From IMG/VR virus record IMGVR_UViG_3300020438_000298, positions 1-22,798 of that record: a DNA stretch of 22,798 nt; one strand, written 5' to 3'. The position numbers and the translations under genes are program-made. This DNA is from a virus. Positions within the stretch are counted from its first letter, which is position 1. Every line of letters begins with the position of its first letter. The notes beneath the pieces are model-generated. The model was not told the DNA's origin and made no database searches. It saw nothing but the letters and a program-made list of their open reading frames with translations. Positions 2,152-18,731 of this stretch are shown here, piece by piece.

Positions 2152-4341
2152 ATGCCATTAGTTAATTTTGCTAATCTGGATTTTGACCAGATTAAGGTAA
2201 CAATAAAGGATTATCTCAGGTCTAACTCAGATTTTACTGATTATGACTTTGAGGGATCTAATTTATCCACTATTGTTGATGTACTTGCCTATAATACCTA
2301 CATCACTTCATACAATGCCAACATGGTATCCAATGAAGTGTTTTTGGATAGTGCTACATTGCGAGAAAATGTAGTTTCTTTAATACAAAATGTTGGATAT
2401 TTGCCAAGGTCAAGAAGAGCATCCAGAATAAACGTATCATTTTACGTTGACACTGGTGGATATGCTACACAACCACAAACTATTAAATTGAATAAGGGAC
2501 TTGTAGCTACCACAACTGAATTTACAAATGAAAGTTTTACCTTTAATATACTAGATGATATTGTAAAACCAGTTTTTAACAGAAGGGCCGTATTTACTGA
2601 TGCTGAACTTATTGAAGGAAATTATATTAACACTACTTTTACAGTAGATTCCTATGATCCAAACCAAAGATTCGTTCTTCCAAATAGTGGTGTTGATACA
2701 ACTACCATTAGAGTTACGGTAAAACCATCACAATTCTCAAGTACCAGTCGGCAATATGCTCAAACAGGTAATGTAACAAGTTGTCAGGGGCATTATACAA
2801 CAAATCAAAGTTTATTTGAAGTAAATGGGACATCAGCAGTCTATTGGATACGTGAAATAGAGGGAGAAAGGTATGAATTGATTTTTGGAGATGGTATTTT
2901 TGGTAAAAAACTAGAAGCACCAAGTTATATTGAAGTTTCTTACATCGTAACAAATGGAAAAGATGGAAATGGTATAAATTCTCTTACTTTTAATGGAAAA
3001 ATAACTTCTGGAAGAGGAAATCTTCCCTTAACATCAGGTATTTCTCTACTTAATGTTGGAGGAAGCAACCAAGGTGCTGGAGGAGGTGCTGGAGGCGGTA
3101 CTGGAGGCGGTACTGGTGGAGGTGGTGGATCATATGGAGGGGCAGATATCGAATCTATTGACTCAATTAAGAAATATGGACCTCGAGCTCATGGATCGCA
3201 GAATAGAGCAGTCACTGCAAACGATTATGAGACACTTATTCCTACAGTTTTCCCCGAAACAGAGGCAGTTTCTTGTTTTGGAGGAGAAGAATTGACTCCT
3301 CCTCGATTTGGACAAGTTTTTTGTGCAGTAAAACCAACGAATGGGTCATATTTGTCAAATGCACTTAAAGAAAACCTTAAAAATGCCGTTAAAAAATATA
3401 ATGTTGCAGGAATAAACCTAGATATTACAGATTTAAAATATTTGTATATAGAACCTGATGTATCTGTATATTATAATTGCAATTTAGGCAAATCTAAGAA
3501 TGATATTATAAGTACTGTAATGAATTCTATTTTAGAATACTTACAAGGTGATGATATAGGTAAATTTAACGGCAGATTTAAATTTAGTAAGTTCCAATGT
3601 TTAATTGATGGAGCTGATGAAGCAATCAGTTCTAATATTACATCTTTAAGGATAAGAAGGGATTTGAGAGTGGCGTTAAATAGTTTTGCGGAATACGAAA
3701 TTTGTTTTGGAAATTGCATCTTTGTTAAAAAATGCGATGGTCATAATATAAGATCTACTGCATTTAAGGTCTCTGGAATACAGGGAGATGTATATCTATC
3801 TGATAAACCAAATTCAAATGATTCTTCAAAAGGAACTATATTCCTATTCCGATTAATGTCCCCAACTCAACCTGAAATTGTGAAGCAAAATATTGGTACT
3901 ATCGATTATGAACACGGAGAAATTAAGTTAGCTCCTATTAATATAACAGATACTGATGTTAAGAGAGATTTCCCTGTAATTGAGATAGATGGAGTTCCTT
4001 GTTCTAATGATGTGTTAGGATTAAAGGATCTTTATCTCCAATTAGGTGGTAATAATGGTAATGGTGGTGATGGGGATGGTAGTAATGATGGTATTAATGT
4101 AGATGCATTTTGTGATGATACTGATAATGTGGCTTCAACCTATGGTGGCAATATACTAGTTCGTGGAGAAGTTCATTATGGATGTAATACTGATGGAATG
4201 GTAGCAGATACCTCTTCTGGAGGAGCAGCTATCGAATCTATTAACTCAATACAAACTGGAGGAGGAGGAATGACTGCTGGTGGCGGTGGTACTACTGGCG
4301 GTGGTGGCGGTGCTGCTGGTGGTGGTGGCGGTGGTTATTAA
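2152..4341 (+). CDS. 6: Baseplate wedge subunit gp6 with poly-glycine insertions
   Basis: Homologue of T4 gp6 (660 residues; 729 here), a baseplate J-like protein whose dimers join neighbouring wedges into the inner ring. Supporting segments are the N-terminal helix region up to about residue 90 (FEGSNLSTIVDVLAYNTYI and on), FGDGIFGKKLEAPSYIEVSY (245-264, the beta motif typical of the J family) and SQNRAVTANDYE (349-360) followed by PETEAVSCFGGEE. Two stretches stand out. Residues 303-328 are almost all Gly with Ala, Thr, Ser and Asn, just before the canonical ADIESIDSIKKYGPR segment. From about residue 635, the C-terminus becomes Gly/Asn/Asp-rich and ends in about 27 residues of poly-Gly after a second copy of the AIESINSI segment. 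The ATG directly follows the gp25 stop, and no strong ribosome binding site is visible. Confidence 0.92.
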   Translation: MPLVNFANLDFDQIKVTIKDYLRSNSDFTDYDFEGSNLSTIVDVLAYNTYITSYNANMVSNEVFLDSATLRENVVSLIQNVGYLPRSRRASRINVSFYVDTGGYATQPQTIKLNKGLVATTTEFTNESFTFNILDDIVKPVFNRRAVFTDAELIEGNYINTTFTVDSYDPNQRFVLPNSGVDTTTIRVTVKPSQFSSTSRQYAQTGNVTSCQGHYTTNQSLFEVNGTSAVYWIREIEGERYELIFGDGIFGKKLEAPSYIEVSYIVTNGKDGNGINSLTFNGKITSGRGNLPLTSGISLLNVGGSNQGAGGGAGGGTGGGTGGGGGSYGGADIESIDSIKKYGPRAHGSQNRAVTANDYETLIPTVFPETEAVSCFGGEELTPPRFGQVFCAVKPTNGSYLSNALKENLKNAVKKYNVAGINLDITDLKYLYIEPDVSVYYNCNLGKSKNDIISTVMNSILEYLQGDDIGKFNGRFKFSKFQCLIDGADEAISSNITSLRIRRDLRVALNSFAEYEICFGNCIFVKKCDGHNIRSTAFKVSGIQGDVYLSDKPNSNDSSKGTIFLFRLMSPTQPEIVKQNIGTIDYEHGEIKLAPINITDTDVKRDFPVIEIDGVPCSNDVLGLKDLYLQLGGNNGNGGDGDGSNDGINVDAFCDDTDNVASTYGGNILVRGEVHYGCNTDGMVADTSSGGAAIESINSIQTGGGGMTAGGGGTTGGGGGAAGGGGGGY
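3056..3168 (+). repeat. Poly-glycine cassette, internal copy, in gp6
   Basis: Residues 303-328 of gp6 are made of GGGA, GGGT and GGGG blocks encoded by repeated GGN triplets, followed by the block at 3136-3168 that encodes GGADIESIDSI. The 33 bases at 3136-3168 recur at 4219-4251 with four mismatches (29 of 33 identical). The Gly tract sits in a surface loop position relative to the J-like core, as far as the flanking conserved motifs show. Confidence 0.7.
4219..4338 (+). repeat. Poly-glycine cassette, C-terminal copy, in gp6
   Basis: The 33 bases at 4219-4251 encode GGAAIESINSI and match 3136-3168 at 29 positions. They are followed by residues 703-729, nearly all Gly with a few Ala, Thr and Met and a final Tyr. 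The order of the two parts (Gly tract, then IES block) is reversed relative to the internal copy. Repeated GGN triplets are prone to slippage, so tract length may vary between isolates. Confidence 0.7.
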
Positions 4342-4377
4342 CTCTCATATTTTTACTAAGATTAACGTATACAACAA

Positions 4378-5130
4378 ATGATATCAACAGATCTAAAAAA
4401 AGTTAAGTTACAAAGTTTAGTTGAAAATCAACTTCCTTCTTTTGTACAATCTGACTTTCCTTTATTAGGAGAATTTTTGAGAGAGTATTATACTTCTCAA
4501 GAATATCCTACTGCTTCTGCTGATGTACTTCAAAATATAGATGAATATGTTAAACTAGTAACTTTAACCACTAATTCTGATAGCACTGTATTGAGAGATG
4601 ATATAGATGAAAGTGATGATGTAATTTTTGCTTCATTTAACTTAAATTCCGATGTTATTGGAACATATGAATTTCCTGAAAAGTATGGTTTGATTCAAAT
4701 AGATAATGAAATTATTTTATATGAGGAAAAAACAAATAATTCATTTAAAGGGTGTATAAGAGGGTTTAGTGGAGTAACTTCATATAATTCAATTCATAGT
4801 GATCAATTAAGTTTTTCAGAATCTGACATTGCCCAACATATAGCTGGTGCAACCATTGTAAACTTAAGTGCTTTACTATTTGCAAGATTTTTAATTAAAG
4901 TTAAAGGTTTATACTCACCTGGATTTCAAAATAGACAATTAGATGATGATTTAAATCAAAGACTCTTTATTTCTAGAGTTAGAGATTTTTATACATCAAA
5001 AGGAAGTGATGAATCTTTTAGAATTCTTTTTGGAGCTTTATACGGAGAAGATTGTGAAGTATTGAGACCTAGAGAGTTTCTTTTTAGACCTTCAGATGCT
5101 GATTATAGATTAACCAAAGATTTGGTTGTG
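4378..5130 (+). other. gp7-like N-terminal domain of the giant protein
   Basis: Residues 1-251. The acidic helical start (SFVQSDFPLLGEFLREYY at 21-38) parallels a T4 gp7 stretch with a similar FxxFxxxYxxYL pattern, and the DFYTSKG-SF-ILFxxLYGE motif at 203-224 parallels T4 DFYSTKG-SYKFLFKVLYNE. I compare with T4 gp7 from memory. If correct, the phage keeps only the C-terminal anchor part of gp7 and has replaced or lost the first ~750 residues. Confidence 0.65.
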
Positions 5131-8100
5131 GAATCTATAAATGGTGATCCATCACAACTTTTAAATTGCACATTATTCCAAGATGCATATGATAACTATG
5201 GAATAGGGAGAGCCTATGCTCCTATTACTAATATAGAAAAAATAACTTATAATCAAACAGATTATTATAAGTTTGGAACCGACTATAGTTATACTACTGA
5301 TATTGCTTTAAGAGGAAGTGTATATGGAGAATTTTCTGTTCATCCATCCACACAGATAATAACTCAAGTTTCAGGAGGATCGAGTGTAATAGATGTAGAT
5401 TCAACTATTGGATTTCCTCCAACTGGTGAATTGGTCATTACATATGAATCAGGAGCTCCTGGAATATTAACTTATAGATCAAAGTCAGTAAATCAATTTT
5501 ATGGAGTAGGAGTAGCTAATACTACAGTTGCTGGTATTGAAAATAGTGAGTCTATTGCGTCAAAAGATGTTATTAGATTAAATGTTAATGCATATGCATA
5601 TGTTGGTATAGGAACCACTAGCAAAGTCCAAGTAAGAATAGGAAATGTTCTTGCAAACCCCATAATTGAAGAAAGCACTTATTACTATGATAAAAATGAT
5701 AGTGCAAAAGTTCAAAGTTTAGGAATTACCACTTCTGGACCAAAAGTTAATAATTGGTTTTATAATTTATCCATTAAATATGATATAGAATCAATAGTTT
5801 TGGTTGATGAATCGGATTTTACTTACACTCTGGTAACATATGATAAAAATGATTTAAAGATTGGTGATAAAGTTGTTGTAACAGATGTTACTGGTAGCAC
5901 TAACGATTCAACAGTTAGTGAAATTATAAGTTCTTATAGTTTTTCCATTAAAGGCCAAGGACGTATTAGCAATGCTGGTTCTACTGTAGAAAGAAAAATA
6001 TTAAGAGGTAATGTTGATAAAAATCTTTCAGATTATCAATATATTAATAATTATTTTGCAAATATCCAAAACACGTATGCAAAATTTAATCAGGATGTTT
6101 TAGTTGCTTCTTCATCTATTCCAAATTACTCTAATGCTCCATTAGATTTTTATGATAGAAAACTTACTTTAAATGGAAATTATAGTGGTGATACTTTTAC
6201 ATTCTTAAATGTTGATGATCATGGTTATTATACAGGAGACGCAGTTTATTATAATTCACATATTACGGAATCTGCTGACTTTTTAGGAAATATTATTAAG
6301 GTTACGAGTAAGTTTCCTGAAATGGATCCTGGTATATTTTTCGTAAAAAGAGTAAATAAAAATCAATTACAACTTGCTACTAGTCCAACTAATATTGATA
6401 ATAATAGGTTTGTGTCAGTAGCTGGTATTGTTACTTCTAATACTTTAGAATATGTTAGTTTTAATGATAAGAAAGTTGATAATCAATTATTGTTTAGAGA
6501 AATAAAATCTCCTAATAAAGAAGTTGGTAATTATGAGACACGGCCAGGATCTAGAAATGGTATCTTGATTAATGGAGTAGAAATTCTAAATTATAAATCA
6601 ACAGATGCTGTTTATCATGGAACTATTAATAATATCGCTGTTGCTGCAGAAGGTAAAAATTATGATATTATAAATCCACCTCTTTTAAATTTAGATGATA
6701 ATGTAGGTTCTGGGGCTACTGGTATATGTGCTATTAAAGGTAGTTTGCAATCCATTGATATTACTGATACGGGATATGATTATGTTTCTAAACCTATTAT
6801 TACAATAACAGGTGGAAATGGTACAGGAGCAAAAGCTTCAGTCAATACTTTAGATTTACATCATAATGTAGAATTTCAAGCGGTTGGGTTGGGTACAGAG
6901 AGATCTGATCGGGTTATTTTAGAAGATAATACAATAGGATTTTCTACATTTCATAAATTTAGAAATGGTGAAAAAATAATCTATAGAACAGATGGAGGGG
7001 TTGCCATAGGAGGAATTTCGACAGATGCTGTTTATTATGTTCATACTGTAGGTGTATCTACAGTAAGTCTTTATAGGGAACAAACAGATGCAATTAATGC
7101 AGGTGTAAATACCATATCATTAACAAGTTTTGGAACAGGAGTTCATAAATTACAAACATTTGAAAGAAAGAAAATTGTATCTAGTATAATAATTGATTCT
7201 AGTGGATCTGGTTATGAAAATAAGAAAAGAACGATAATTTCAGCAACAGGTATTAATACAGCACTTAATCAAATTAATATAGATTCTCATGGATATAAGT
7301 CTGGAGAAATTATTCAATACACTTATAATACTGATCGAATTTTAGGTATAAACTCAAATACAGATTATTTTGTCACTGAAGTTGATAATGATAACTTTAG
7401 ACTTTCTAGTGTAGGTGTAGGAACCACTGCAAAGAGTTTATATTATGATAGTAATCAATACATACAGTTTTCTTCACCTACTTTAGGGTCAGGAACTCAT
7501 TCATTCAATTATCAACCCATCACTGTGGATTTAAGTGGTGAAATTGGTGTTACTACTTACAGTGGTCAAGATTTTAAAGCTAAACTTCAACCATTATTCA
7601 AAGGATCTATTGATTCAATTCAAGTCACTAATAGTGGTGTAAGTTATGGATCATCAAGCATTTTAAATTATGACAATCAACCATTAATCACATTGAAAAA
7701 TGGTACTAATGCAGAAGTCAGTGTAGTTCTTGATAATGGTAAAATTGTTGAAAGTATTGTTACTAATGAAGGGTATGGTTATGAGGCTCCTCCTATTTTA
7801 ACTATTAATACTAATGGATCTGGAAGTTATGGAAAATTAGTTCCAATTGTTAGTGAAGGAAAATTAGTAAATGTTAGAATAGATAATGCTGGTATAGGAT
7901 ATACTGGAAATGTATTGGTTAGTGTCCTACCTAGTGGTTCAAATGCTAAATTCAGGTCTCATATTAAATCTTGGACGGTTAATTTATTTACTAAGTACTT
8001 GGATATTATTTCGGGTGATGATGGAGTGTTAGATGTATCGCAAAACTCTGAAAGAGGTATACAATATACTCATTTATATACACCTAGAAAATTAAGAGAA

Positions 8101-11100
8101 TCTGTATATGTAAGGAGTCAAAATAATCAAATAAAATATGGTCTTAGTGATTTAGAAAAAGTTGATAATCAAGAAGTTTCTGCTTCTTATCATTCTCCTA
8201 TAATAGGATGGGCTTATGATGGACATCCAATATATGGTCCTTATGGTTATACAAATCGTGATGGTGGAATTGTAAGAGCTATGGAGTCTGGTTATAAACT
8301 AACTACTCCATCTAATCGACCTCCTCTATCAGACTTCCCTCAAGGATTTTTTATTGAGGATTATGAATTTGATAACTCAGGGGACTTAGATGAACATAAT
8401 GGTCGTTTTTGCGTAACCCCAGATTATCCAAATGGAACATATGCATATTTTACTACAATCAATTCTACAAATATTGAAAACTCAGGACCATTTAATAGAT
8501 ATAGAATTCCTGAATTCCCATATTTAATTGGAAATACATTTAAATCTAAACCCAATCCATTTAATTATAGTATAAACTCTAATCAAATAAATTATGATTT
8601 AAATGATTCAGAATGGTTTAGAAATACTACTCCATATTCTTTAGATAAAAAGAATACCTCTTACGATTTCTTATTACAACCAAATAAAGCTAAAGAGTTA
8701 AAAGTAAATATATCTGATGTTTCCAAAGGAAATATTGAGAAAGTTGGTATTGTAACAGGGGGAAGTGGTTATCAAATTAATGATAAGATAATTTTTGAAC
8801 CTTTACTAGGATCTCAAGTTGCTAAAGCTAAAGTTTCTGAAATTGGAGGTGTAGAAGTAACTAATGTCAGTGTTGCTTCTAGTTTAGTCTCTGAATTAGA
8901 GATTATTCCTTTTGATGCTAGTGGAACTTATCTTGCAATTTCTACTTCACCTCATAATTTTACTAATACTAACTTAGTTTCTTTAGCGGGATTTAATACT
9001 TCAATCAGTTCTCTTCAAGGTGGATTTAACATTGGAGTAAGAACAGAAAGTGTTAATTTAACTGGAGGGGTAAGTAATACGAATGCCACTGGATTAGTTA
9101 CATATTTTGGAATTGCTGGTTCTTTAGATAATGATTTACTTTCAATTAGAGAAAACGATATTCTTGGAATTGGAACGGAAACAATAAAAGTATTAAATGT
9201 TGATAGTAAGAATTCTAGATTAAGAGTTTTAAGAGCTCAAAATGAAACCGTATCTTCTGCTCATACAGCAACTGCAGTTATAACTGAAGATTCTAGGAAA
9301 TTCACCTTTAATGCAACACCTCAAGATAATGTAATTTTTGAATCAACAAAAGAGATTTATTTTGAACCGAAGGAAGCAGTAGGATTAGGTACTCTTACAG
9401 GAGTGGGTATTGGAACAACTATTTTCTTCTCTAATCCTGGTGCTGGATTAACTCAAGTTTATATTCAATCACAATCTATTTTCTTACCTGATCATGAATT
9501 GAATACTGGTGATCTTTTAAGATATAGAAATAATGGTGGGGATTCTATTGGTGTTTCTACTGATGGCACTACATCCTTTAATTTACCAGATGAGTCTAGA
9601 GTATATGTTGGAAAAATTTCTAATAATCTTATTGGAATTTCTACATTTAGAGTGGGACTGGGATCTACTGGTACTTTCGTAGGAATTGCTGATACTAATA
9701 AGACAGGAGGATTACTCAGATTCACTGGATTAGGAACTGGTGTATATCATAGTTTTAAAACTATAAAAGATTATGTTGTTACAAGTGAAGCAACTAAGAA
9801 TGTTGTTACCGTGGCTACTGCTTCTACTCATGGATTACTGTTTAATGACAATTTAAGAATAGATGTAAACCCAGGCATTCATACTAGTATTAGTGTAAAA
9901 TATAATGATTTTAATAGAAGAATAGTTTTTGATCCTAAATCATTTGTTTCGGGGAATGTTGATACTACTAATAATGCAATTACAATTACTGATCACGGAT
10001 TAAAAGATGGTGATAAAGTAATCCACACTGCATCTACTCCTTCGGGTGGGTTAGAGGATGAAAAAATTTATTACATTGTTAGACAATCTACTAATAGTAT
10101 AAAACTATGTTTAACAAGATATGAGTCTTTAGAATTTGCTCCAGAAGTAGTTGATATAACCTCAGCTTCTGCAGGAACTATTTCTCCTGTTAATCCTACA
10201 ATAAATCTGTACAATAATAATACTGTTAAGTTTAATTTATCAGATCCTTCACTCTGTTCTTTTGTGGGGTTATCTTCTTATGCTGCATTTGATTTTAATT
10301 TATATACAGACAAAGAATTTAAAAATCCATTTTATTCAACTAGTGTAGATAATTCTTTTGAAGTATCTAAATCAGGGGTTATAGGAATTTCTACTAATGC
10401 AAATCTAACACTTGTTGTGGGCGATGAAATACCTAAAGTACTGCATTATAAGTTCAATCCAGTTCAAAATGATTTAATTGACGATATTAAAAAACAAATT
10501 GTTATCGATAGAGAAGTGGTTGGATATAATCAGATAGAAATAAAAGAAAGTATTTACTCAGGTCTTTTCCCTACAGCTGGAATTGGAACTACAACCACTT
10601 TCTCATATGAAATATTGAACACTCCTGAAAAATCATCTTATACTCCATCTGAAGGAAGTTTAAAATATTTTACAAATTCTACTACTTCCTATGGCGGTAT
10701 ATCTAAAGTTGAAATAACATCTCAAGGAAAAAATTATTCAGAAATTGTAGGTGTATCATCGATTAAAACAGGTATAGGTACTCAAGCTCTTTTTGAAGTT
10801 AGTAGTGATAGTATTGGTAAAATAAATTCAACAAGAATTGAAGATATTGGATTTGACTATCCTACAGATAATACTTTAAGACCTGTTCTAAATTTACCAG
10901 AAATTCTTATAATGGATTCTTTAAATTCATTTGAAAGTATTGGAATTAGTTCTGCTGGTAAAAATTATACTATAGCACCTGATTTAAATGTATTGGACGG
11001 ATTTACTAGAAAGAAAATTGATGATGTAGATTTAACTTATAAGATTGGAGACTCTCAAGTTACTATTCTTGAAAATGTTAAAAGTATCAATAGCACCACT

Positions 11101-14100
11101 CCCATTATTATACCAACATCAAATATTAATGGTATTGATATAAAAACTCTTTCATATGATGTTTCTACTAAAAATGTTACTATTGGATTAAATACTGCCT
11201 TTAGTGATGCATCTCCACTTGATGTAGGGGATAAAGTTTTAATTGAAAACGTAAGTGTTGGAGTTGGTACAACAGGAATTGGATATAACTCAGTTGATCG
11301 TCAATATTCCCTCTTTACTCTTGCAGATGTTAATATTCCCTTAGGAGGAGGAGTTGGAGTTGTTACTTATAGCTTAGGTGGATATTTAAGAGAAGGAGAA
11401 TTTCCTGGTAATTTTGATGCATTAAATTCAGCTGGAATAATTGTTCCTGAAAAATACTTCCCTCAATTCAATATTAAATTAAAGAAAAATAATTTCTTTG
11501 TTGGAGAAGATGTTACTAGTGGCGATAAAGTTGGTGAAGTTGAAAGTTGGAATAATCGTATTGAATTATTGAAATTATCAACAACAACTGAGTTTGATGT
11601 TGGAGATATTATTGTAGGAAACACTTCAAGAACTCAAGCAAAAGTTAAATCTAAAATTGATTTTAATGCAGAAGTTGAAATGTCTTCTGGATCAGTTGTT
11701 GCAAATGGTTGGCAAAAAGATACAGGATTTTTAAACAACAGTCTTGAAAGAATTGCTGATAATAATTATTATCAAAATTTCTCTTATTCGTTAAAATCGA
11801 AAGTTGATATAGGAACTTGGAATGAAGCTGTAAGCACTCTTAATCATCCTGCAGGATTCCTTAAATTTAGTGATTTGCGTATAGAATCTACTGATAATAA
11901 TTTCAGTGGTGTTTCTGGAAAAGAGAGTGTGTTAGTTGCATTTATAAATTTAGATGCAGAAATAGATATAAATTGTTATTCTAATTTTGATTTAGTTACA
12001 GAAAATTCTCTTAATATTAGTGATGGTAAAATAGCATCTGATGAGATTTATTTCAACTCAAGAGTATTGACAGATTATTTTGAATCAGTAGGAAATAGAG
12101 CTCTTATTATAGATGATGTAAGTACTCAATTTAATAGTGACCCAAGATCTACCAGATTCTCAGTAGTTGCCAATTTTGATGTAAAACAAAGATCTAAGAA
12201 GTGGTTAACTTTAGTAAAAGATAAAACGTTTACTGGTGAACGTCAATGTATGTTAGTGACTTTATTGCAGGATGAAACTAATGGATTTATGAATCAATAT
12301 GGTAGGGTAGAAAGCACAAGTGACCTTGGAAGTTTTGATTTTCAAGTTACTGGAAATAAAGGCCAACTTCTTTTCTATCCTACAAAATATCAAGTGAATG
12401 ATTATAATGTAAGTAATGTGAGTTTGGATATTGTTGGGTTAAGTACAGTTGGTATAGGATCTACGACTTTAGGTAGTTCAGTTGATATTCGATCTACTCA
12501 AACAACTGTAGCAGCTGGCACAACTACCACCGTGGTTGGTATTGCTTCTACTTACAGGAGTGCAAAAGTTATTGTTCAGATTAATGCTAATAATGGACAA
12601 ATGGAGTTTGATGAATTAAATATTATTCATGATGGTACTACGGTAGAACTTTTAGAGTATGGTCAAGTAACATCGGTATTTGATGAGGATTATAGTGGAA
12701 CAGGATTGGGAACTTACATTGCATCGATGGCAACTGGTTCTCTTAACATCGATTTTGTTCCTAATGCAGGTATTGCTTGTTCTGTAGATACATTAAGTAT
12801 TGCTATGGCAAGTGCCAATGCAGGTGCTGGTGGAACAGGAATAGGAACTCAGTATTTGGGAGATGGTATTCAAGATATAGCATTTGTCGATTCTTCGTTT
12901 ACTGCTATTCCTTCTGCAGCATCTCCACTTGCACATAAAATTGCTGAGTATGATATAAACAATACTGTTGCCACTAATGATCATAATGCTGCATATTATC
13001 TTATTAGTGTAGAGGATACTACTAATGGTCGATATGAAATGTCGGAAGTTATTCTTTTAAATGATAACTCTGAAGCATATATGACTGAGTATGGTAATAT
13101 TATCAGTAATATTGGATTAGGAACAGTGGGAGCTGCAGTTTCAAGTTCTACTTCACAGACTCAATTGATGTATACTCCTATTGCAGGTATTGCAGCATCA
13201 GTTCGTGTTTTCCAAATGGGTCTTCAGATTGCTGCCACGAATGATGATATAACATCTGTTTCTAAGATAGATTTAAATAATGCTTCTATAACTGCAGGAT
13301 ATGGTGATTATACTGGTACAGAAACAGATGTTCTTAGAGCATTTAATTTAACACATGACGGAAGAAATATATTCCAAAGAGATTTTGATGGTAGTAGTTC
13401 AACTGTTGTTGATCTAACTAAAAATAGTGTTACACTTCCAGAACATTTCTATGTAACAGGTGAGGAAGTTACTTATTCTTATGATGTAGATAGTGGAAGT
13501 CCAATTGGAATTGCTACTACTACTATTAGTGGAATCGGGGCTACTGATCAACTTCCAACAAATACTTTTATCGTTAAGATAGATGAAACCACTATTAAGT
13601 TTGCTAAAACTGCAGAGGATGCTTTAAAGAGCGTTCCTAATATATTACACTTATCATCTGTTGGTGGAGGTATAGGTCATACTATAACAGCAAGAAATCA
13701 GAATACAAAATGTTTAATTGCTCTTGATAATGCCATTCAATCTCCTATTGTTTCCACTGCTGTTACCACAGGTATAACCACTACATTTGGAGTAGCATCT
13801 AAAGTTCTTGAAACTGTTGGTGTAACTTCATTCTTTGGTGGTGATTTGGTTAAAGTTAATGAAGAAATAATGAAAGTAGATACTGTGAGTTATGGAAAAA
13901 CAAATAATATTTTAGTAGATCGTGCTTGGATGGGAACCAACTTAGGAGTTCATACTGCTAATTCTATTGTAACAAAGGTAGAGGGTAATTATAATATTGT
14001 TGCCAATACACTTAACTTCATTACAGCTCCTCAAGGGCCTACTCCCGTAAGTTCTACAACTAATCCACCTGAGAGTAGAGACTGGGTAGGAATAACTACA

Positions 14101-17100
14101 TTCTCTATGTTCCAAGGCAGATCCTTTATGAGAACTGCTGCTAAAGATAGCACTAATAGACCATATCAAACTAACTATGTTTTCGATGATATTTCTGATG
14201 AATTTAATGGTATAGGAAAAACATTTACTTTAACATCTAACAAATCTAATGCTGCTGGATTCTCTACAGATAATGCTGTTGTTCTTATAAACGGTGTATT
14301 GCAAGGACCAACGGGTGACTTAACAGTTGATCAAGATTATACTTTATCAGAAGGTCTTACTGGAATAAGTAGCATTACTTTCACAGGAGCAGCCACATCC
14401 GAAGCCTATGACCCTAATAGCGGTTCTATACCTGTTGGGGGTATCATTGTATCGGTAGGTTCAACTGGTGGTTTAGGTTATCAACCTCTTGTTTCTGCTG
14501 GTGGAACTGCTATTGTATCTGCTGCTGGTACTATTACTTCTATTAGTATTGGTAACACTGGATCTGGATATAGGGTAGGAGTTCAAACTACTGTAAACGT
14601 AGCAATACAAACTTCAAGTAATGGTATTCCAAATCTAACAGGAATTGGAACTGCTGCAATCACTGATGGACATATTACAGGAATAGCAATTACGAATGGT
14701 CAGGTTCTTTATGTACCAAGATCTATTTCTAATGTTGGTTATAGTTCAGTAACAGGTATTACAACCATTACCACATCGACAGCCCACGGACTTGCAGAGG
14801 GGCAGGAAGTCAAGTTAGCAGGAATTGCATTCACATGTGATTACCTCCCTGCTGTGGGCGTTCAGAGTGCCGTATACACTAGTACTACGGGTATTATGAC
14901 TGTTACCACATCTGGTGCTCATGGACTCTCTACCACTGGTAAGGCAAGCGATGTAGTACTTACGGGATTAGCATTTACATGTTCCTTAGATAATGGTGCT
15001 GCAACTCATAGTTATCCTCGAACAACTGATCCTGCGTATGGTGGAACACCTGTTACTGGAGTGGCTAGCGTAACTCAATTTACAATCAATGTCGGTATAT
15101 CAACTGTCCCAACATTCTATGTTTCTGGAGGTACAATTCAACCTGCTCTTATTGCACCTAGAACTGAAAATAATTCAGATAGTGGCGTAGATCCTGCTGC
15201 TCAAGGATCTACAATTCTGACAATTCTTAATACAACTTCCTTTACGATTAATTCTGGAGTATCTACTAGAACTCACTTCTATTCTAGAGGAGGATCTGTT
15301 AATAGGGCCATGGATGTGGTGATTGATGAACCACTTTCATATTCTAATATGCCATTAATTTATAGTTCTTCTTCAGTTGGTGTAGGAACTCAAGCAACTG
15401 TTGATATAGTTGTTGGGCAGGGATCAAGTGTTGTGAGTTTTGAAGTAAGAAATAAAGGATACTCTTATGCTGATAATCAAATCTTAACTATACCCGTAGG
15501 AGGAACTACTGGTATTCCTAAAGATCCTTCTTATACTTTTAGTGAATTCCAAATTACTATACAAGAAACTATTTCTGATCGTTTCAGTGCATGGAATTTT
15601 GGACAACTTGAAGTATTAGATAAGATTGAGAATGAATTTGATAGTTCTAAGAGATCATTTACGTTGAAGAAAGCTAGTGCTCCTGTTACAATTAGAGCAA
15701 AGGAAGGATCAAGTATTGATGTTCAAGCAACATTGCTTGTGTTTATAAATGATATCTTGCAAGTTCCTGGTGAAGGATATACTTTTACTAATGGTAGTGT
15801 ACTTACATTCTCAGAAGCACCTAAAGGACCAAATTCGGATGGAACATTTGATGGAGATACTTGTAAGATTCTCTTCTATAAAGGAAGTGGTGATATAGAT
15901 GTTACCTTTACAGATGTTTTAGAGACGGTTAAAAAAGGAGATACTCTTGAAATTCAAGGGGATGCTGATCTATGTGCAAGATCTATACAACAAGATCCTC
16001 GATTAGTAACTCAAATAGTGGCAACTGATATTGTGGATACAAATACTTACGTGGGTGTTGGTATTAATGGAAATCCAGATTGCAATAGAACAGTTACTTG
16101 GTGTAAGCAAGGTGCTGATAAGATTATTGATGGTCAGATTGTAAGTAAGAGTCGTGAAGAATTAGAAGCATTGATTAATCCAACCACTGTTATCATTCAA
16201 CCTGTTGGTGTTGGTTCAAATGTTATATTTGTTGAGAGTGTTAGATCATTCTTTGATCCTAATAATGAATCTCAGACAAGTGCTAAAACACAAAAGATCT
16301 CTATAACCTCTCAAGATAATCTCGTAGGAGCTGCTGCAAGTGCTGTTGTTTCTATTGCTGGTACAATATCTTCAGTTGTGGTGAGTTCTGGTGGAACAGG
16401 ATATACTTCTGCACCTGATGTGATTATTGGTACTCCCGTTGGGTTGGGAACAACCACTAGAGCATCTGTTACATCCACACTTACTGGAGATGCAGTTTCT
16501 GCTATTACAGTTACATCTCCTGGTACTGGTTACACTATTTCAAGTCCTCCAGAAGTTCTTATTGAAGTTCCTTCTTTAACACAAGAAATTAATGAATCAT
16601 CTTCATATCAAGGTGACTTTGGAGAAATTGTAGGAGTTGGTACAACTTCTGTGGGTATCGCATCTACAGGTGTTGTATTTGATTTGTATATTCCAACTAA
16701 TTCATTCTTGAGAGATGCTACCATAACAGGTACTGCTGTTACTATAAGTGGTATTCAAACTGGATATTACTTTACAGTTTCTAATAGTAATATTGGAAAT
16801 GGTTTGACATCTATATATCAAAATGGATCTGTATTAGGTATAGGAACTACCTTTATAGATAATGTGTATGAAGTGGCTGCAGTTTCGATTGCAGAAACTT
16901 CAACTCCTGGTATTGCAAATACATATGTTGCAAGGGTTACAACTAGTGTTTCTAGTTTCAATTCTTTATCTGGAATGGGAGTAAGTGAATTGTATGGTAA
17001 TTTCTCATGGGGTAGAATAGCATTGGGTTCTAGAGGTGTACCTCAAGCATTTAATGCATATACTCAAAATGGATTTACTGGACTTTCTACTTCTGCTCTC

Positions 17101-17145
17101 GTTACTAGAGTAGCACCTTTGAAGTCTAAAGATTATTCTGCTTAA
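4378..17145 (+). CDS. Giant gp7-position wedge/adhesin protein (4255 residues)
   Basis: It lies between genes 6 and 8, where T4 has gp7 (1032 residues). Residues 1-60 and 186-250 recall the C-terminal part of T4 gp7: RDFYTSKGSDESFRILFGAL (202-221) with LYGEDCEVLRP lines up with T4's YDFYSTKGIEASYKFLFKVL and the following LYNEEVEI. Residues 97-182 (EIILYEE, GCIRGFSGVTSY, NLSALLF, LYSPGF) are a segment I know from cyanophage relatives. The rest is beta-rich: HG[LY] modules, GxGY modules, a YHYH-like domain (about 1240-1365), a conserved block with GWQKDTGFLNNS and NYYQNFSYSLKSKV (2443-2501), a triplicated module (2608-2952), NGVLQ and NDILQ tail-protein segments (about 3262-3340 and 3735-3840), and a C-terminal domain (4070-4255). 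No signal peptide or membrane segment. Inferred role: wedge arm carrying peripheral adhesive structure. No clear ribosome binding site is visible. Confidence 0.88.
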   Translation: MISTDLKKVKLQSLVENQLPSFVQSDFPLLGEFLREYYTSQEYPTASADVLQNIDEYVKLVTLTTNSDSTVLRDDIDESDDVIFASFNLNSDVIGTYEFPEKYGLIQIDNEIILYEEKTNNSFKGCIRGFSGVTSYNSIHSDQLSFSESDIAQHIAGATIVNLSALLFARFLIKVKGLYSPGFQNRQLDDDLNQRLFISRVRDFYTSKGSDESFRILFGALYGEDCEVLRPREFLFRPSDADYRLTKDLVVESINGDPSQLLNCTLFQDAYDNYGIGRAYAPITNIEKITYNQTDYYKFGTDYSYTTDIALRGSVYGEFSVHPSTQIITQVSGGSSVIDVDSTIGFPPTGELVITYESGAPGILTYRSKSVNQFYGVGVANTTVAGIENSESIASKDVIRLNVNAYAYVGIGTTSKVQVRIGNVLANPIIEESTYYYDKNDSAKVQSLGITTSGPKVNNWFYNLSIKYDIESIVLVDESDFTYTLVTYDKNDLKIGDKVVVTDVTGSTNDSTVSEIISSYSFSIKGQGRISNAGSTVERKILRGNVDKNLSDYQYINNYFANIQNTYAKFNQDVLVASSSIPNYSNAPLDFYDRKLTLNGNYSGDTFTFLNVDDHGYYTGDAVYYNSHITESADFLGNIIKVTSKFPEMDPGIFFVKRVNKNQLQLATSPTNIDNNRFVSVAGIVTSNTLEYVSFNDKKVDNQLLFREIKSPNKEVGNYETRPGSRNGILINGVEILNYKSTDAVYHGTINNIAVAAEGKNYDIINPPLLNLDDNVGSGATGICAIKGSLQSIDITDTGYDYVSKPIITITGGNGTGAKASVNTLDLHHNVEFQAVGLGTERSDRVILEDNTIGFSTFHKFRNGEKIIYRTDGGVAIGGISTDAVYYVHTVGVSTVSLYREQTDAINAGVNTISLTSFGTGVHKLQTFERKKIVSSIIIDSSGSGYENKKRTIISATGINTALNQINIDSHGYKSGEIIQYTYNTDRILGINSNTDYFVTEVDNDNFRLSSVGVGTTAKSLYYDSNQYIQFSSPTLGSGTHSFNYQPITVDLSGEIGVTTYSGQDFKAKLQPLFKGSIDSIQVTNSGVSYGSSSILNYDNQPLITLKNGTNAEVSVVLDNGKIVESIVTNEGYGYEAPPILTINTNGSGSYGKLVPIVSEGKLVNVRIDNAGIGYTGNVLVSVLPSGSNAKFRSHIKSWTVNLFTKYLDIISGDDGVLDVSQNSERGIQYTHLYTPRKLRESVYVRSQNNQIKYGLSDLEKVDNQEVSASYHSPIIGWAYDGHPIYGPYGYTNRDGGIVRAMESGYKLTTPSNRPPLSDFPQGFFIEDYEFDNSGDLDEHNGRFCVTPDYPNGTYAYFTTINSTNIENSGPFNRYRIPEFPYLIGNTFKSKPNPFNYSINSNQINYDLNDSEWFRNTTPYSLDKKNTSYDFLLQPNKAKELKVNISDVSKGNIEKVGIVTGGSGYQINDKIIFEPLLGSQVAKAKVSEIGGVEVTNVSVASSLVSELEIIPFDASGTYLAISTSPHNFTNTNLVSLAGFNTSISSLQGGFNIGVRTESVNLTGGVSNTNATGLVTYFGIAGSLDNDLLSIRENDILGIGTETIKVLNVDSKNSRLRVLRAQNETVSSAHTATAVITEDSRKFTFNATPQDNVIFESTKEIYFEPKEAVGLGTLTGVGIGTTIFFSNPGAGLTQVYIQSQSIFLPDHELNTGDLLRYRNNGGDSIGVSTDGTTSFNLPDESRVYVGKISNNLIGISTFRVGLGSTGTFVGIADTNKTGGLLRFTGLGTGVYHSFKTIKDYVVTSEATKNVVTVATASTHGLLFNDNLRIDVNPGIHTSISVKYNDFNRRIVFDPKSFVSGNVDTTNNAITITDHGLKDGDKVIHTASTPSGGLEDEKIYYIVRQSTNSIKLCLTRYESLEFAPEVVDITSASAGTISPVNPTINLYNNNTVKFNLSDPSLCSFVGLSSYAAFDFNLYTDKEFKNPFYSTSVDNSFEVSKSGVIGISTNANLTLVVGDEIPKVLHYKFNPVQNDLIDDIKKQIVIDREVVGYNQIEIKESIYSGLFPTAGIGTTTTFSYEILNTPEKSSYTPSEGSLKYFTNSTTSYGGISKVEITSQGKNYSEIVGVSSIKTGIGTQALFEVSSDSIGKINSTRIEDIGFDYPTDNTLRPVLNLPEILIMDSLNSFESIGISSAGKNYTIAPDLNVLDGFTRKKIDDVDLTYKIGDSQVTILENVKSINSTTPIIIPTSNINGIDIKTLSYDVSTKNVTIGLNTAFSDASPLDVGDKVLIENVSVGVGTTGIGYNSVDRQYSLFTLADVNIPLGGGVGVVTYSLGGYLREGEFPGNFDALNSAGIIVPEKYFPQFNIKLKKNNFFVGEDVTSGDKVGEVESWNNRIELLKLSTTTEFDVGDIIVGNTSRTQAKVKSKIDFNAEVEMSSGSVVANGWQKDTGFLNNSLERIADNNYYQNFSYSLKSKVDIGTWNEAVSTLNHPAGFLKFSDLRIESTDNNFSGVSGKESVLVAFINLDAEIDINCYSNFDLVTENSLNISDGKIASDEIYFNSRVLTDYFESVGNRALIIDDVSTQFNSDPRSTRFSVVANFDVKQRSKKWLTLVKDKTFTGERQCMLVTLLQDETNGFMNQYGRVESTSDLGSFDFQVTGNKGQLLFYPTKYQVNDYNVSNVSLDIVGLSTVGIGSTTLGSSVDIRSTQTTVAAGTTTTVVGIASTYRSAKVIVQINANNGQMEFDELNIIHDGTTVELLEYGQVTSVFDEDYSGTGLGTYIASMATGSLNIDFVPNAGIACSVDTLSIAMASANAGAGGTGIGTQYLGDGIQDIAFVDSSFTAIPSAASPLAHKIAEYDINNTVATNDHNAAYYLISVEDTTNGRYEMSEVILLNDNSEAYMTEYGNIISNIGLGTVGAAVSSSTSQTQLMYTPIAGIAASVRVFQMGLQIAATNDDITSVSKIDLNNASITAGYGDYTGTETDVLRAFNLTHDGRNIFQRDFDGSSSTVVDLTKNSVTLPEHFYVTGEEVTYSYDVDSGSPIGIATTTISGIGATDQLPTNTFIVKIDETTIKFAKTAEDALKSVPNILHLSSVGGGIGHTITARNQNTKCLIALDNAIQSPIVSTAVTTGITTTFGVASKVLETVGVTSFFGGDLVKVNEEIMKVDTVSYGKTNNILVDRAWMGTNLGVHTANSIVTKVEGNYNIVANTLNFITAPQGPTPVSSTTNPPESRDWVGITTFSMFQGRSFMRTAAKDSTNRPYQTNYVFDDISDEFNGIGKTFTLTSNKSNAAGFSTDNAVVLINGVLQGPTGDLTVDQDYTLSEGLTGISSITFTGAATSEAYDPNSGSIPVGGIIVSVGSTGGLGYQPLVSAGGTAIVSAAGTITSISIGNTGSGYRVGVQTTVNVAIQTSSNGIPNLTGIGTAAITDGHITGIAITNGQVLYVPRSISNVGYSSVTGITTITTSTAHGLAEGQEVKLAGIAFTCDYLPAVGVQSAVYTSTTGIMTVTTSGAHGLSTTGKASDVVLTGLAFTCSLDNGAATHSYPRTTDPAYGGTPVTGVASVTQFTINVGISTVPTFYVSGGTIQPALIAPRTENNSDSGVDPAAQGSTILTILNTTSFTINSGVSTRTHFYSRGGSVNRAMDVVIDEPLSYSNMPLIYSSSSVGVGTQATVDIVVGQGSSVVSFEVRNKGYSYADNQILTIPVGGTTGIPKDPSYTFSEFQITIQETISDRFSAWNFGQLEVLDKIENEFDSSKRSFTLKKASAPVTIRAKEGSSIDVQATLLVFINDILQVPGEGYTFTNGSVLTFSEAPKGPNSDGTFDGDTCKILFYKGSGDIDVTFTDVLETVKKGDTLEIQGDADLCARSIQQDPRLVTQIVATDIVDTNTYVGVGINGNPDCNRTVTWCKQGADKIIDGQIVSKSREELEALINPTTVIIQPVGVGSNVIFVESVRSFFDPNNESQTSAKTQKISITSQDNLVGAAASAVVSIAGTISSVVVSSGGTGYTSAPDVIIGTPVGLGTTTRASVTSTLTGDAVSAITVTSPGTGYTISSPPEVLIEVPSLTQEINESSSYQGDFGEIVGVGTTSVGIASTGVVFDLYIPTNSFLRDATITGTAVTISGIQTGYYFTVSNSNIGNGLTSIYQNGSVLGIGTTFIDNVYEVAAVSIAETSTPGIANTYVARVTTSVSSFNSLSGMGVSELYGNFSWGRIALGSRGVPQAFNAYTQNGFTGLSTSALVTRVAPLKSKDYSA
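6193..7515 (+). repeat. HG[LY] beta-modules 1-3 in the giant protein
   Basis: Three ~70-85-residue modules start at about residues 606, 846 and 962. They share the pattern DxHG[YF]xxGExxxY, a variable IGGI/LGIN stretch, a YYV or YFV strand, an N-x-[FL]-x-L strand, and an ending GTGVHKL or GSGTHSF. Key segments are DDHGYYTGDAVYY (613-625), FHKFRNGEKIIYR (858-870) and DSHGYKSGEIIQY (969-981). Modules of this pattern are common in very large bacterial adhesins and phage tail proteins. Confidence 0.65.
6628..7960 (+). repeat. GxGY beta-modules, first cluster
   Basis: Short modules of about 35-45 residues with the pattern I-x-[IV]-x-x-x-G-x-x-Y followed by PxLxI and a Gly-rich GTGAxA turn. Members: AEGKNYDIINPP, TDTGYDYVSKPIITI with GNGTGAKASV, SSGSGYENKKRTI, and a clean run of three at 7603-7960 (NSGVSYGSSS, NEGYGYEAPPILTI, NAGIGYTGNVLVSV). 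They alternate with the HG modules. Further members occur at 8725-8840, 10690-11000, 14500-14700, 15415-15510 and 16340-16590. Confidence 0.65.
8095..8472 (+). other. YHYH-like domain within the giant protein
   Basis: Residues 1240-1365. GWAYDGHPIYGPYGY (1277-1291) is the hallmark segment of the YHYH domain family, followed by DLDEHNGRFCVTPDYPNG at 1335-1353. The namesake YHYH tetrad, expected directly after PNGT, reads YAYF (1355-1358) here, so the histidine pair is lost. In the family the conserved histidines suggest metal binding, so this copy may be structural only. Confidence 0.75.
9457..10191 (+). repeat. HG[LE] beta-modules, second cluster
   Basis: Members at about residues 1694-1797 (PDHELNTGDLLRYRNNGG and an ending GLGTGVYHSF), a short one at 1808-1830 (ASTHGLLFNDNLRI), and 1865-1938 (TDHGLKDGDKVIH, then KIYYIVRQSTNSIKLCL). 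They share the H-[GE]-[LY]-x-x-x-D turn and the strand order of the first cluster. Confidence 0.6.
11704..11880 (+). other. Conserved tail-protein block in the giant protein
   Basis: Residues 2443-2501 contain GWQKDTGFLNNSLERIAD, NYYQNFSYSLKSKV and LNHPAGFLKFSDLR. I recall closely similar blocks in giant structural proteins of marine T4-like phages. The aromatic-rich FLN / YYQNFSY / HPAGF pattern is far more complex than the surrounding low-complexity modules, so it is probably a distinct folded element, perhaps an oligomerisation point. Confidence 0.5.
12199..13233 (+). repeat. Triplicated ~80-residue module
   Basis: Three diverged copies lie at residues 2608-2686 (nt 12199-12435), 2727-2811 (12556-12810) and 2869-2952 (12982-13233). 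Shared landmarks are a first strand (KWLTLV, KVIVQI, YYLISV), then TNG or NNG plus an acidic E-x-x-[IL] strand (MSEVILLN in copy 3), then an EYG or QYG turn (NQYGRVES, LEYGQVTS, TEYGNIIS), then LG[TS] and a final ...P...ax.SV strand. Linkers of 40 and 57 residues separate them. Confidence 0.65.
14761..15318 (+). repeat. Nested duplicated HGL/AFTC/FTIN modules, GC-rich at the left
   Basis: Residues 3462-3647 contain two HGL turns (STAHGLAEGQEV, SGAHGLSTTG), each followed by an AFTC segment (GIAFTCDYLP, GLAFTCSLDNG). Then come one SYPRTTDPAYG segment and two FTIN blocks (FTINVGISTVPTFYVSGG at 3568-3585, FTINSGVSTRTHFYSRGG at 3622-3639). This order looks like partial tandem duplication of one HGL-AFTC-YPR-FTIN unit, a unit I have seen in marine phage tail proteins. 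Confidence 0.6.
16585..17142 (+). other. C-terminal domain of the giant protein
   Basis: Residues 4070-4255: SSYQGDFGEIVGVGTT, then FDLYIPTNSFLRD, GYYFTVSNSNIGNG, NVYEVAAVSIAETS, then YGNFSWGRI and an ending with VTRVAPLKSKDYSA. The non-repetitive, conserved-looking sequence suggests a folded terminal domain. I recall similar endings in cyanophage structural proteins in the same genomic position. Confidence 0.55.
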
Positions 17146-17177: not shown

Positions 17178-18731
17178 ATGGCCGCAATTATAACTGATCA
17201 ACTTCGTATTTTGAATACTAAAGATTTTGTTGCTAGTGTAGCTGCAACTACTAATTCATTTTATACATGGATTGGTTTGCCCAATGCTACACAAGTTGAT
17301 TCTGATTGGAATACGACTCCACCAAATCCCAGAGATTCTTTTAATCAGGAGAATGAATATTGGGATACTATGATTGCGTTGAAAAAAATAACGACATCAG
17401 ATGTTAAACAGGTTGTAGATAAAAATAGTTGGACATCGGGAATTACTTATGATATGTATAGGAATGATATTCAAGCAGAGAGTCCTTCCAAACCATCAAA
17501 TGCGATAAGTTTATATAATGCAAATTATTTTGTTATGAACTCTGATTACAGAGTTTATATCTGCTTACAGAATGGAAACGATCCTGATAATCCAGAAGGT
17601 AAAGCATCACTAGATGAACCAACATTTACAGATTTAGAACCAAGAGCTGCTGGAACAAGTGGAGATGGATATGTTTGGAAATATCTTTATACGATTAAAC
17701 CAAATGATATTGTAAAATTTGATTCTACAAACTTTATGCCTGTTCCTAAGGATTGGGCAACTAATGCACGGGATGCAGCAGTAAGAGATAATGCATCGAC
17801 GAGTGGACAACTCAAAATTATTACTATTACAAATAGGGGAGTTGGACTAGGTACTGCTAATCAAACTTATACAAAAGTTCCTGTTAGAGGTGATGGAACA
17901 GGTGCAGAAGCAACTGTTGTTGTCAATAGTGCATCTAAAATTGAATCAGTAACTATTTCAAAAGGTGGTGCGGGATATAGTTTTGGTACTTTGGATGTGA
18001 TAGCAGGTGGAGTACCAGCAGGAAGCACAGCTCCTGTATTTGATGTTATTATTCCTCCAGAGGGTGGTCATGGTGCTGACATTTATAGAGAACTGGGGGC
18101 AAAAAATGCTCTTGTTTATTCAAGGATTGAAAACGATACAGAAAATCCTGATTTTATAACAGGAAATGAATTTGCTCGTGTTGGAATTGTTCAAAATCCA
18201 AAATCTTATGGAACTAGTTCTAATTTAGAACTTGATAAGGCAAGTGCAGTTTATGCATTAAAACTTGTTGGTGCTGGTGCAAGCACTGCTACTTTTACTG
18301 CAGATAATTTTATTAGTCAGACTATTTCAGCTGGATCTACTGCTGAAGGAAGAGTCATTTCTTATGATCAAACTACTCAAGTTTTGAAATATTGGCAAGA
18401 CAGAACAGTTGCTGGATTTAATACTAACGGAACTAAAAACACTGATCCTGAGTATGGATTCCAACTTAACAGATTTACAAGTAATATTGTAGGTGGTGGT
18501 TCTTTCAATATTCTTGGTGGATCTGCAACTTTAGCAATTCATAGTTCATTTACAGGTGTATCTACTGTAATAAATAGTAAGACGTATTATCTTGGACAGT
18601 CATTCACTAAAGGAGTGGCAAATCCAGAAGTAAGAAAATATTCTGGTAATATTATCTACGTTGACAATAGACCTTCAATTACAAGGTCTACTAACCAAAA
18701 AGAAGATATCAAAGTCATTTTGCAATTCTAA
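17178..18731 (+). CDS. 8: Baseplate wedge subunit gp8, enlarged by a GxGY insertion
   Basis: This protein joins gp7 and gp10 in the arm of the T4 wedge. It has 517 residues against 334 in T4. Correspondences with T4 gp8 run in order: FYTWIGLP near 28-35 with WDTMIALKKIT (62-72), NSWTSGITYDMYR (83-95), YRVYICLQ (124-131), SGDGYVWKYLYTIKP (161-175; T4 GDGYVWEYLFEIPP), RVGIVQNPKSYG (334-345; T4 has ISIITNPLEAK) and the end SGNIIYVDNRPSITR with QKEDIKVILQF (T4 SGEMIYMENRPPIIM with QTEEINILFTF). The extra length lies in residues about 211-296, which carry two GxGY-type modules like those of the giant protein, and in 350-485. ATG start; no clear ribosome binding site. An AATAAATA late-type motif lies 17 nt upstream. 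Confidence 0.92.
   Translation: MAAIITDQLRILNTKDFVASVAATTNSFYTWIGLPNATQVDSDWNTTPPNPRDSFNQENEYWDTMIALKKITTSDVKQVVDKNSWTSGITYDMYRNDIQAESPSKPSNAISLYNANYFVMNSDYRVYICLQNGNDPDNPEGKASLDEPTFTDLEPRAAGTSGDGYVWKYLYTIKPNDIVKFDSTNFMPVPKDWATNARDAAVRDNASTSGQLKIITITNRGVGLGTANQTYTKVPVRGDGTGAEATVVVNSASKIESVTISKGGAGYSFGTLDVIAGGVPAGSTAPVFDVIIPPEGGHGADIYRELGAKNALVYSRIENDTENPDFITGNEFARVGIVQNPKSYGTSSNLELDKASAVYALKLVGAGASTATFTADNFISQTISAGSTAEGRVISYDQTTQVLKYWQDRTVAGFNTNGTKNTDPEYGFQLNRFTSNIVGGGSFNILGGSATLAIHSSFTGVSTVINSKTYYLGQSFTKGVANPEVRKYSGNIIYVDNRPSITRSTNQKEDIKVILQF
17808..18065 (+). repeat. GxGY modules inside gp8
   Basis: Residues 211-296 of gp8: LKIITITNRGVGLG, then VPVRGDGTGAEATVVV, then KIESVTISKGGAGYSFGTLDV and VPAGSTAP. 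The pattern (IxSI/IESVxI, GxGY, Gly-rich GTGAxA turn) is the one that recurs in the giant protein, as in SLQSIDITDTGYDYVSKP with GNGTGAKASV. It falls between the GDGYVWKYL segment and the YRELG segment and so looks like an insertion into the gp8 core. Confidence 0.65.

Follow-up and report, generated by a model that had tools for sequence, protein, structure and literature searches.

Relation to Described Systems

Baseplate wedge proteins are normally regarded as conserved. Gp6 of phage T4 (PDB 5iv5, 5hx2, 3h2t), which shares both its sequence family and its fold with the protein analyzed here, ends at residue 660, soon after the last weakly alignable segment, and appears to have no low-complexity tail: It is by such an extra tail that gp6 proteins of the cyanophage type differ from it. 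In the Kyanoviridae S-SM2, P-TIM68, and Bellamy this tail ends in tyrosine, and gene 6 lies between gp25 and a giant gp7, with gp8 following next in S-SM2. Glycine-rich motifs beside variable sequence are moreover found in the poly-glycine adhesins gp38 of S16 and PP01, which, unlike gp6, are receptor-binding proteins of the fibre tip, where poly-glycine type II (PGII) helices pack into a structured lattice with protruding hypervariable loops (PMC12892980).

The window analyzed here is the whole stretch of 22,798 nucleotides of a 22.8-kb IMG/VR virus record and contains a baseplate operon: gp25 (1750-2151) is followed by gene 6 (2152..4341), which encodes 729 amino acids, by a giant ORF of 4255 amino acids (4378-17145) that matches the wedge subunit PHROG 2885, by gp8 (17178-18731), and by a DUF4815 ORF that runs off the window end. 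The order gp25-gp6-gp7-gp8 is thus found in the window and is identical in S-SM2. Residues 1266-1366 of the giant ORF also match the Pfam domain YHYH. Gene 6 and the features in and directly behind it that are described below all lie on the plus strand.

By domains and fold, the 729-residue ORF is a T4-type gp6 baseplate wedge subunit. It matches PHROG 219 (1.2e-174), and the Pfam domains Gp6-like_1st, Gp6_C-I, and Gp6_C-III score above cut-off; T4 gp6 matches the profile with an E-value of 4e-59, which places both proteins in one sequence family. The AF2 model (mean pLDDT 75) has the gp6 fold, and its top structure matches are gp6 of T4 and KP1 (5iv5/9f4a). The best 60 matches in the phage collection all belong to Prochlorococcus or Synechococcus phages or to marine single-cell virus records, with about 48-51% identity for the top matches. 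The protein is hence closest to cyanophage gp6 and indicates, by its sequence, a myovirus of the T4-like cyanophage (Kyanoviridae) type, whose cyanobacterial host is putative. In its clade, which comprises the window and L082-L100, gp6 has 10-14 cysteines, compared with mostly 0-4 in other cyanophage-type gp6 and a maximum of 7 among L003-L015. Compared with T4 gp6, the window protein also has a glycine-rich loop insert and, in its tail, a copy of an internal segment; the sampled Kyanoviridae isolates, whose gp6 is about 48-51% identical to it, have neither.

Duplication of an Internal Segment in the Tail

The copied segment, termed here the IES block, occurs at two sites. The internal block SYGGADIESIDSI (3130..3168) leads from a loop into the predicted helix 336-348, and relatives have a block at this place; the diverged second copy SSGGAAIESINSI (4213..4251) lies in the tail. 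A preliminary description made from the sequence had reported that 3136-3168 and 4219-4251, encoding GGADIESIDSI and GGAAIESINSI, agree at 29 positions, and we reproduced this exactly (29/33 nt). The ungapped match extends to 3130-3167 and 4213-4250, with 87% of 38 nt identical. Two of the four nucleotide differences are synonymous and two nonsynonymous, so that 9 of 11 residues are identical, one D being replaced by A and another by N. In codon-shuffled versions of gp6 the best 33-nt self-match reached 26 positions, compared with 29-30 observed (300 shuffles each, with the glycine tracts kept or removed). The duplication is therefore above chance.

The direction of copying that had been proposed, from the internal site to the C-terminus, is borne out by comparison with relatives: Whereas the internal segment is conserved at the same position of gp6, an IES-like peptide occurs in one of the 83 tails examined, namely that of the window. 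The internal segment is, as judged from this distribution, ancestral and the C-terminal one the copy. The sister L098, whose gp6 is 90% identical to that of the window (support 99/98), has a glycine-rich tail and no internal glycine insert, and carries the threonine-rich linker DTTEVITTTTTLTQDGNVTGTTTTQTTQITQAGGGMTGGGGGGGGGY where the window has DTSSGGAAIESINSIQTGGGGMTAGGGGTTGGGGGAAGGGGGGY; the copy has thus replaced such a linker.

With regard to the donor, the tail copy agrees at 29 of 33 positions with the internal blocks of the window, L097, L099, and L100, at 28 with that of L098, and at no more than 26 elsewhere, which identifies, at the level of DNA similarity, the internal gp6 block of the window's own lineage as the source. 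A foreign donor was considered in L102, whose internal site encodes the identical peptide GGAAIESINSI, but its DNA agrees at 26/33 positions as opposed to 29/33 for the own lineage, and this candidate was rejected. Duplicated core fragments in the remaining tails were rejected as well, since the strongest matches behind that of the window paired one glycine tract with another.

The Glycine-Rich Tracts

Gp6 of the window has two glycine-rich tracts. The internal one (about 3058..3135, residues 303-328) is an insert of about 21 extra residues in the loop before helix 336-348 and is based at the DNA level on a 12-nt unit repeated 4.8 times (TRF); the C-terminal one (4258..4338, residues 703-729) ends in GGGGGGY. 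Internally the glycine tract precedes the IES block, at the C-terminus it follows it, and because the order is opposite at the two sites, a point not made in the preliminary description, the unit they share is the IES block only. Nor is the DNA of the two tracts more alike than that of codon-shuffled tracts (p=0.53; p=0.27 in another shuffle test). On the first of these tests, with a best match of 25/33 (p=0.53), we also rejected a derivation of the loop tract from the window's own tail tract.

Glycine-rich inserts at the internal site are present in the window, L083, L088, L092, and L094, all of one clade and together 5 of 124 non-redundant gp6 proteins, and are absent from L001-L080 and from the sister L098. 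Two of the carriers, L092 and L094, have a second glycine-rich insert in a nearby upstream loop. On the tree the carriers are interspersed with sisters that have no insert, implying that it was gained, lost, or exchanged several times. The tract of the window is closest to that of L083 (31/33), both being repeats of one 12-nt unit, and a common origin of these two is likely, though not proven, from their sequences. Glycine-rich tail ends also occur in L098, L097, L094, L084, L087, L091, and others, and in L084, L087, L091, L097, L098, and L100 the glycine-rich tail is found without an internal tract; conversely, L092 has an internal tract and a proline-rich tail. In an alignment with related gp6 proteins the two tracts thus occur independently of each other, as L098 and L092 show, and by this sequence comparison the internal tract is an insert separate from the glycine-rich tail.

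The loop that accepts the insert is flanked by a pair of cysteines (GNG[IV]C and ..CS.GG) in L001, L084, L087, L090, L091, L093, L096, and L098, at positions equivalent to about residues 275 and 305 of the window; within the clade both cysteines are present or neither. Glycine inserts are restricted to clade members that lack the pair, and it is possible that a disulfide or metal site was replaced here by a loose loop.

Variability and Predicted Structure of the Tail

The hypervariable, low-complexity tail (4165..4338) lies 3' of a conserved LVR motif and ends in a tyrosine codon followed by TAA. In 83 of 124 non-redundant gp6 proteins, a mostly metagenomic sample that leaves out many P-SSM2-like loci (L194-L273), LVR is followed by a low-complexity tail of 12-107 residues, and 41 proteins stop there. 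These tails are rich in threonine, serine, glycine, or proline, 15 of the 83 being glycine-rich. Among cultured phages, S-SM2 (...GGGSYGY), P-TIM68 (...SGGGGGGGY), Bellamy (...GGGGGY), RN05-S (...SRASY), and SynMITS9220M01 (...NNNQY) have such a tail, and P-SSM2, S-PM2, and DSL-LC02 have none. A glycine-rich gp6 tail, which had been called unexpected in the preliminary description, is therefore not so in marine T4-like cyanophages. We found no literature on gp6 tails, which does not prove its absence.

The AF2 model of gp6 has a pLDDT below 50 at residues 679-729, and likewise at residues 305-324, with no secondary structure in either stretch; in this low-confidence, single-chain model, a low pLDDT is weak evidence for disorder. 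The folded core of gp6 is accordingly predicted to end near LVR (residue 671) and to be followed by an intrinsically disordered tail. Upstream of LVR, a third glycine-containing stretch, rich also in aspartate and asparagine, GGNNGNGGDGDGSNDGINVD (4045..4104, residues 632-651; more narrowly delimited, 4045..4099, residues 633-648), which is present in shorter versions in relatives, bears a faint likeness to a calcium-binding loop.

Tail ends may also have moved between phages. Between some distant phages the next 45 nt after the tail end are 89-93% identical compared with 70-73% for the cores, and in pairs such as L001/L004 and L098/L012 the tail ends together with these 45 nt are more alike than the cores. 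Tail ends and flanks that are closer than the cores suggest an exchange of tail ends, with constraint on the intergenic stretch as the alternative. Directly 3' of the gp6 stop, an in-frame LSYFY-stop (4342..4359) corresponds to LSYSY-stop in L098 and L012; this LSY[F/S]Y-stop is conserved between distant relatives and is possibly what remains of an earlier end of the tail. In L099 the reading frame is shifted and an N is located inside the gp6 tail (4300-4470 of that sequence), probably because the repeat was misassembled.

The Terminal Tyrosine

A terminal tyrosine is found in 79 of the 83 tails, the exceptions being L010, L015, L044, and L090, compared with 1 of 41 tail-less gp6 proteins and 0 of 71 other ORFs. 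In the structural modules of S-SM2 and P-TIM68 that we read, a low-complexity tail ending in tyrosine occurs only in gp6. In an earlier sample the tyrosine codon was TAC in 35 and TAT in 24 cases, with TAA always next; as both codons are used, selection is likely to act on the amino acid, and a cause at the DNA level was rejected on account of this codon usage and of the differing 3' flanks. The 79 tyrosine-ended tails do not represent 79 independent events, since they share recent ancestry and recombination is possible. The near-universality of the residue suggests an unrecognised anchoring point; with about one third of the relatives tail-less and four tails lacking the tyrosine, some phages evidently do without it. 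We tentatively regard the tail as a tether whose terminal tyrosine putatively docks on the baseplate.

Weighing of the Explanations

The preliminary description had joined glycine tract and IES block into one poly-glycine cassette copied within gp6. That the IES block is truly duplicated and that a glycine tract adjoins each copy would fit, but one tract precedes the block and the other follows it, at the DNA level the tracts resemble each other no more than shuffled ones do, six relatives have the glycine tail without the internal tract, and L092 combines the internal tract with a proline-rich tail; we consider this cassette very improbable. Nor are the second IES block and the glycine tracts easily put down to misassembly or a chimeric join around the GGN repeats, a reading that might be invoked because the window is an IMG/VR record, often a fragment, and because the tail of L099 contains an N and leaves the frame: Misassembly should yield identical copies, whereas these differ at 4 of 33 positions, the frame stays open to the tyrosine and stop and continues into a 3' flank nearly as in L098, and four relatives have inserts at the internal site. 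An artefact is thus unlikely, the exact tract lengths in the window being uncertain.

As for function, the glycine-rich strings and the marked variability of the tails recall the host-binding surface formed by a PGII bundle in gp38 of T2-type phages, and a relation to the S16 adhesin had been raised before. However, most tails are rich in threonine, serine, or proline rather than glycine (15 of 83), the tail is predicted, in a single-chain model of low confidence, to be unstructured and lends no support to a PGII lattice, PHROGs and Pfam return no match of gp6 to a tail-fibre adhesin family, and the established cases are fibre-tip proteins with a PGII lattice and protruding hypervariable loops (PMC12892980), which makes this the reading we credit least. 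The tail copy could instead be functional, imitating the internal loop with the beginning of its helix and binding to the same site of a neighbouring gp6 subunit, as the preservation of 9 of 11 residues might suggest; but of the four differences two change the amino acid, the copy lacks the KKYGPR helix part that follows the internal block, it occurs in one phage only, and it is predicted to be disordered, so that we give such mimicry a small probability.

We favor, with moderate confidence, the reading of the tail as a disordered tether of variable composition that ends in tyrosine, in which a copy from the own gene serves as linker and the glycine tracts are separate features; this reading builds on the observed copy, its direction, the variability of the tail, the conservation of the tyrosine, and the predicted disorder. 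The terminal glycine tract was present in the clade before the IES block was copied. A threonine-rich linker in the tail was then replaced by a 33-38 nt copy of the internal IES segment, probably through short-homology recombination or template switching, long enough ago for four substitutions to have accumulated since. The internal glycine tract is a separate insert that, in view of its 12-nt unit, may have grown by repeat slippage in a tolerant loop. The tail would most likely be a flexible tether with its terminal tyrosine docking on a neighbouring baseplate subunit; the composition of the linker would be nearly free, and the IES copy would probably be a linker or spacer only.

More generally, selection on gp6 tails might chiefly concern the docking of a C-terminal tyrosine in a putative conserved baseplate pocket, with linkers rebuilt from scavenged fragments and by repeat expansion, a proposal that we consider possible rather than probable. 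If it is true, a short linear motif would be working within a contractile phage tail by means of sequence-free linkers. That gp6 tails with little else conserved nearly always finish in tyrosine, in viruses abundant in the sea, hints at a baseplate contact of cyanophages that has yet to be described, and gp6 of the window would provide an example of a disordered protein tail rebuilt from a copied piece of its own gene.
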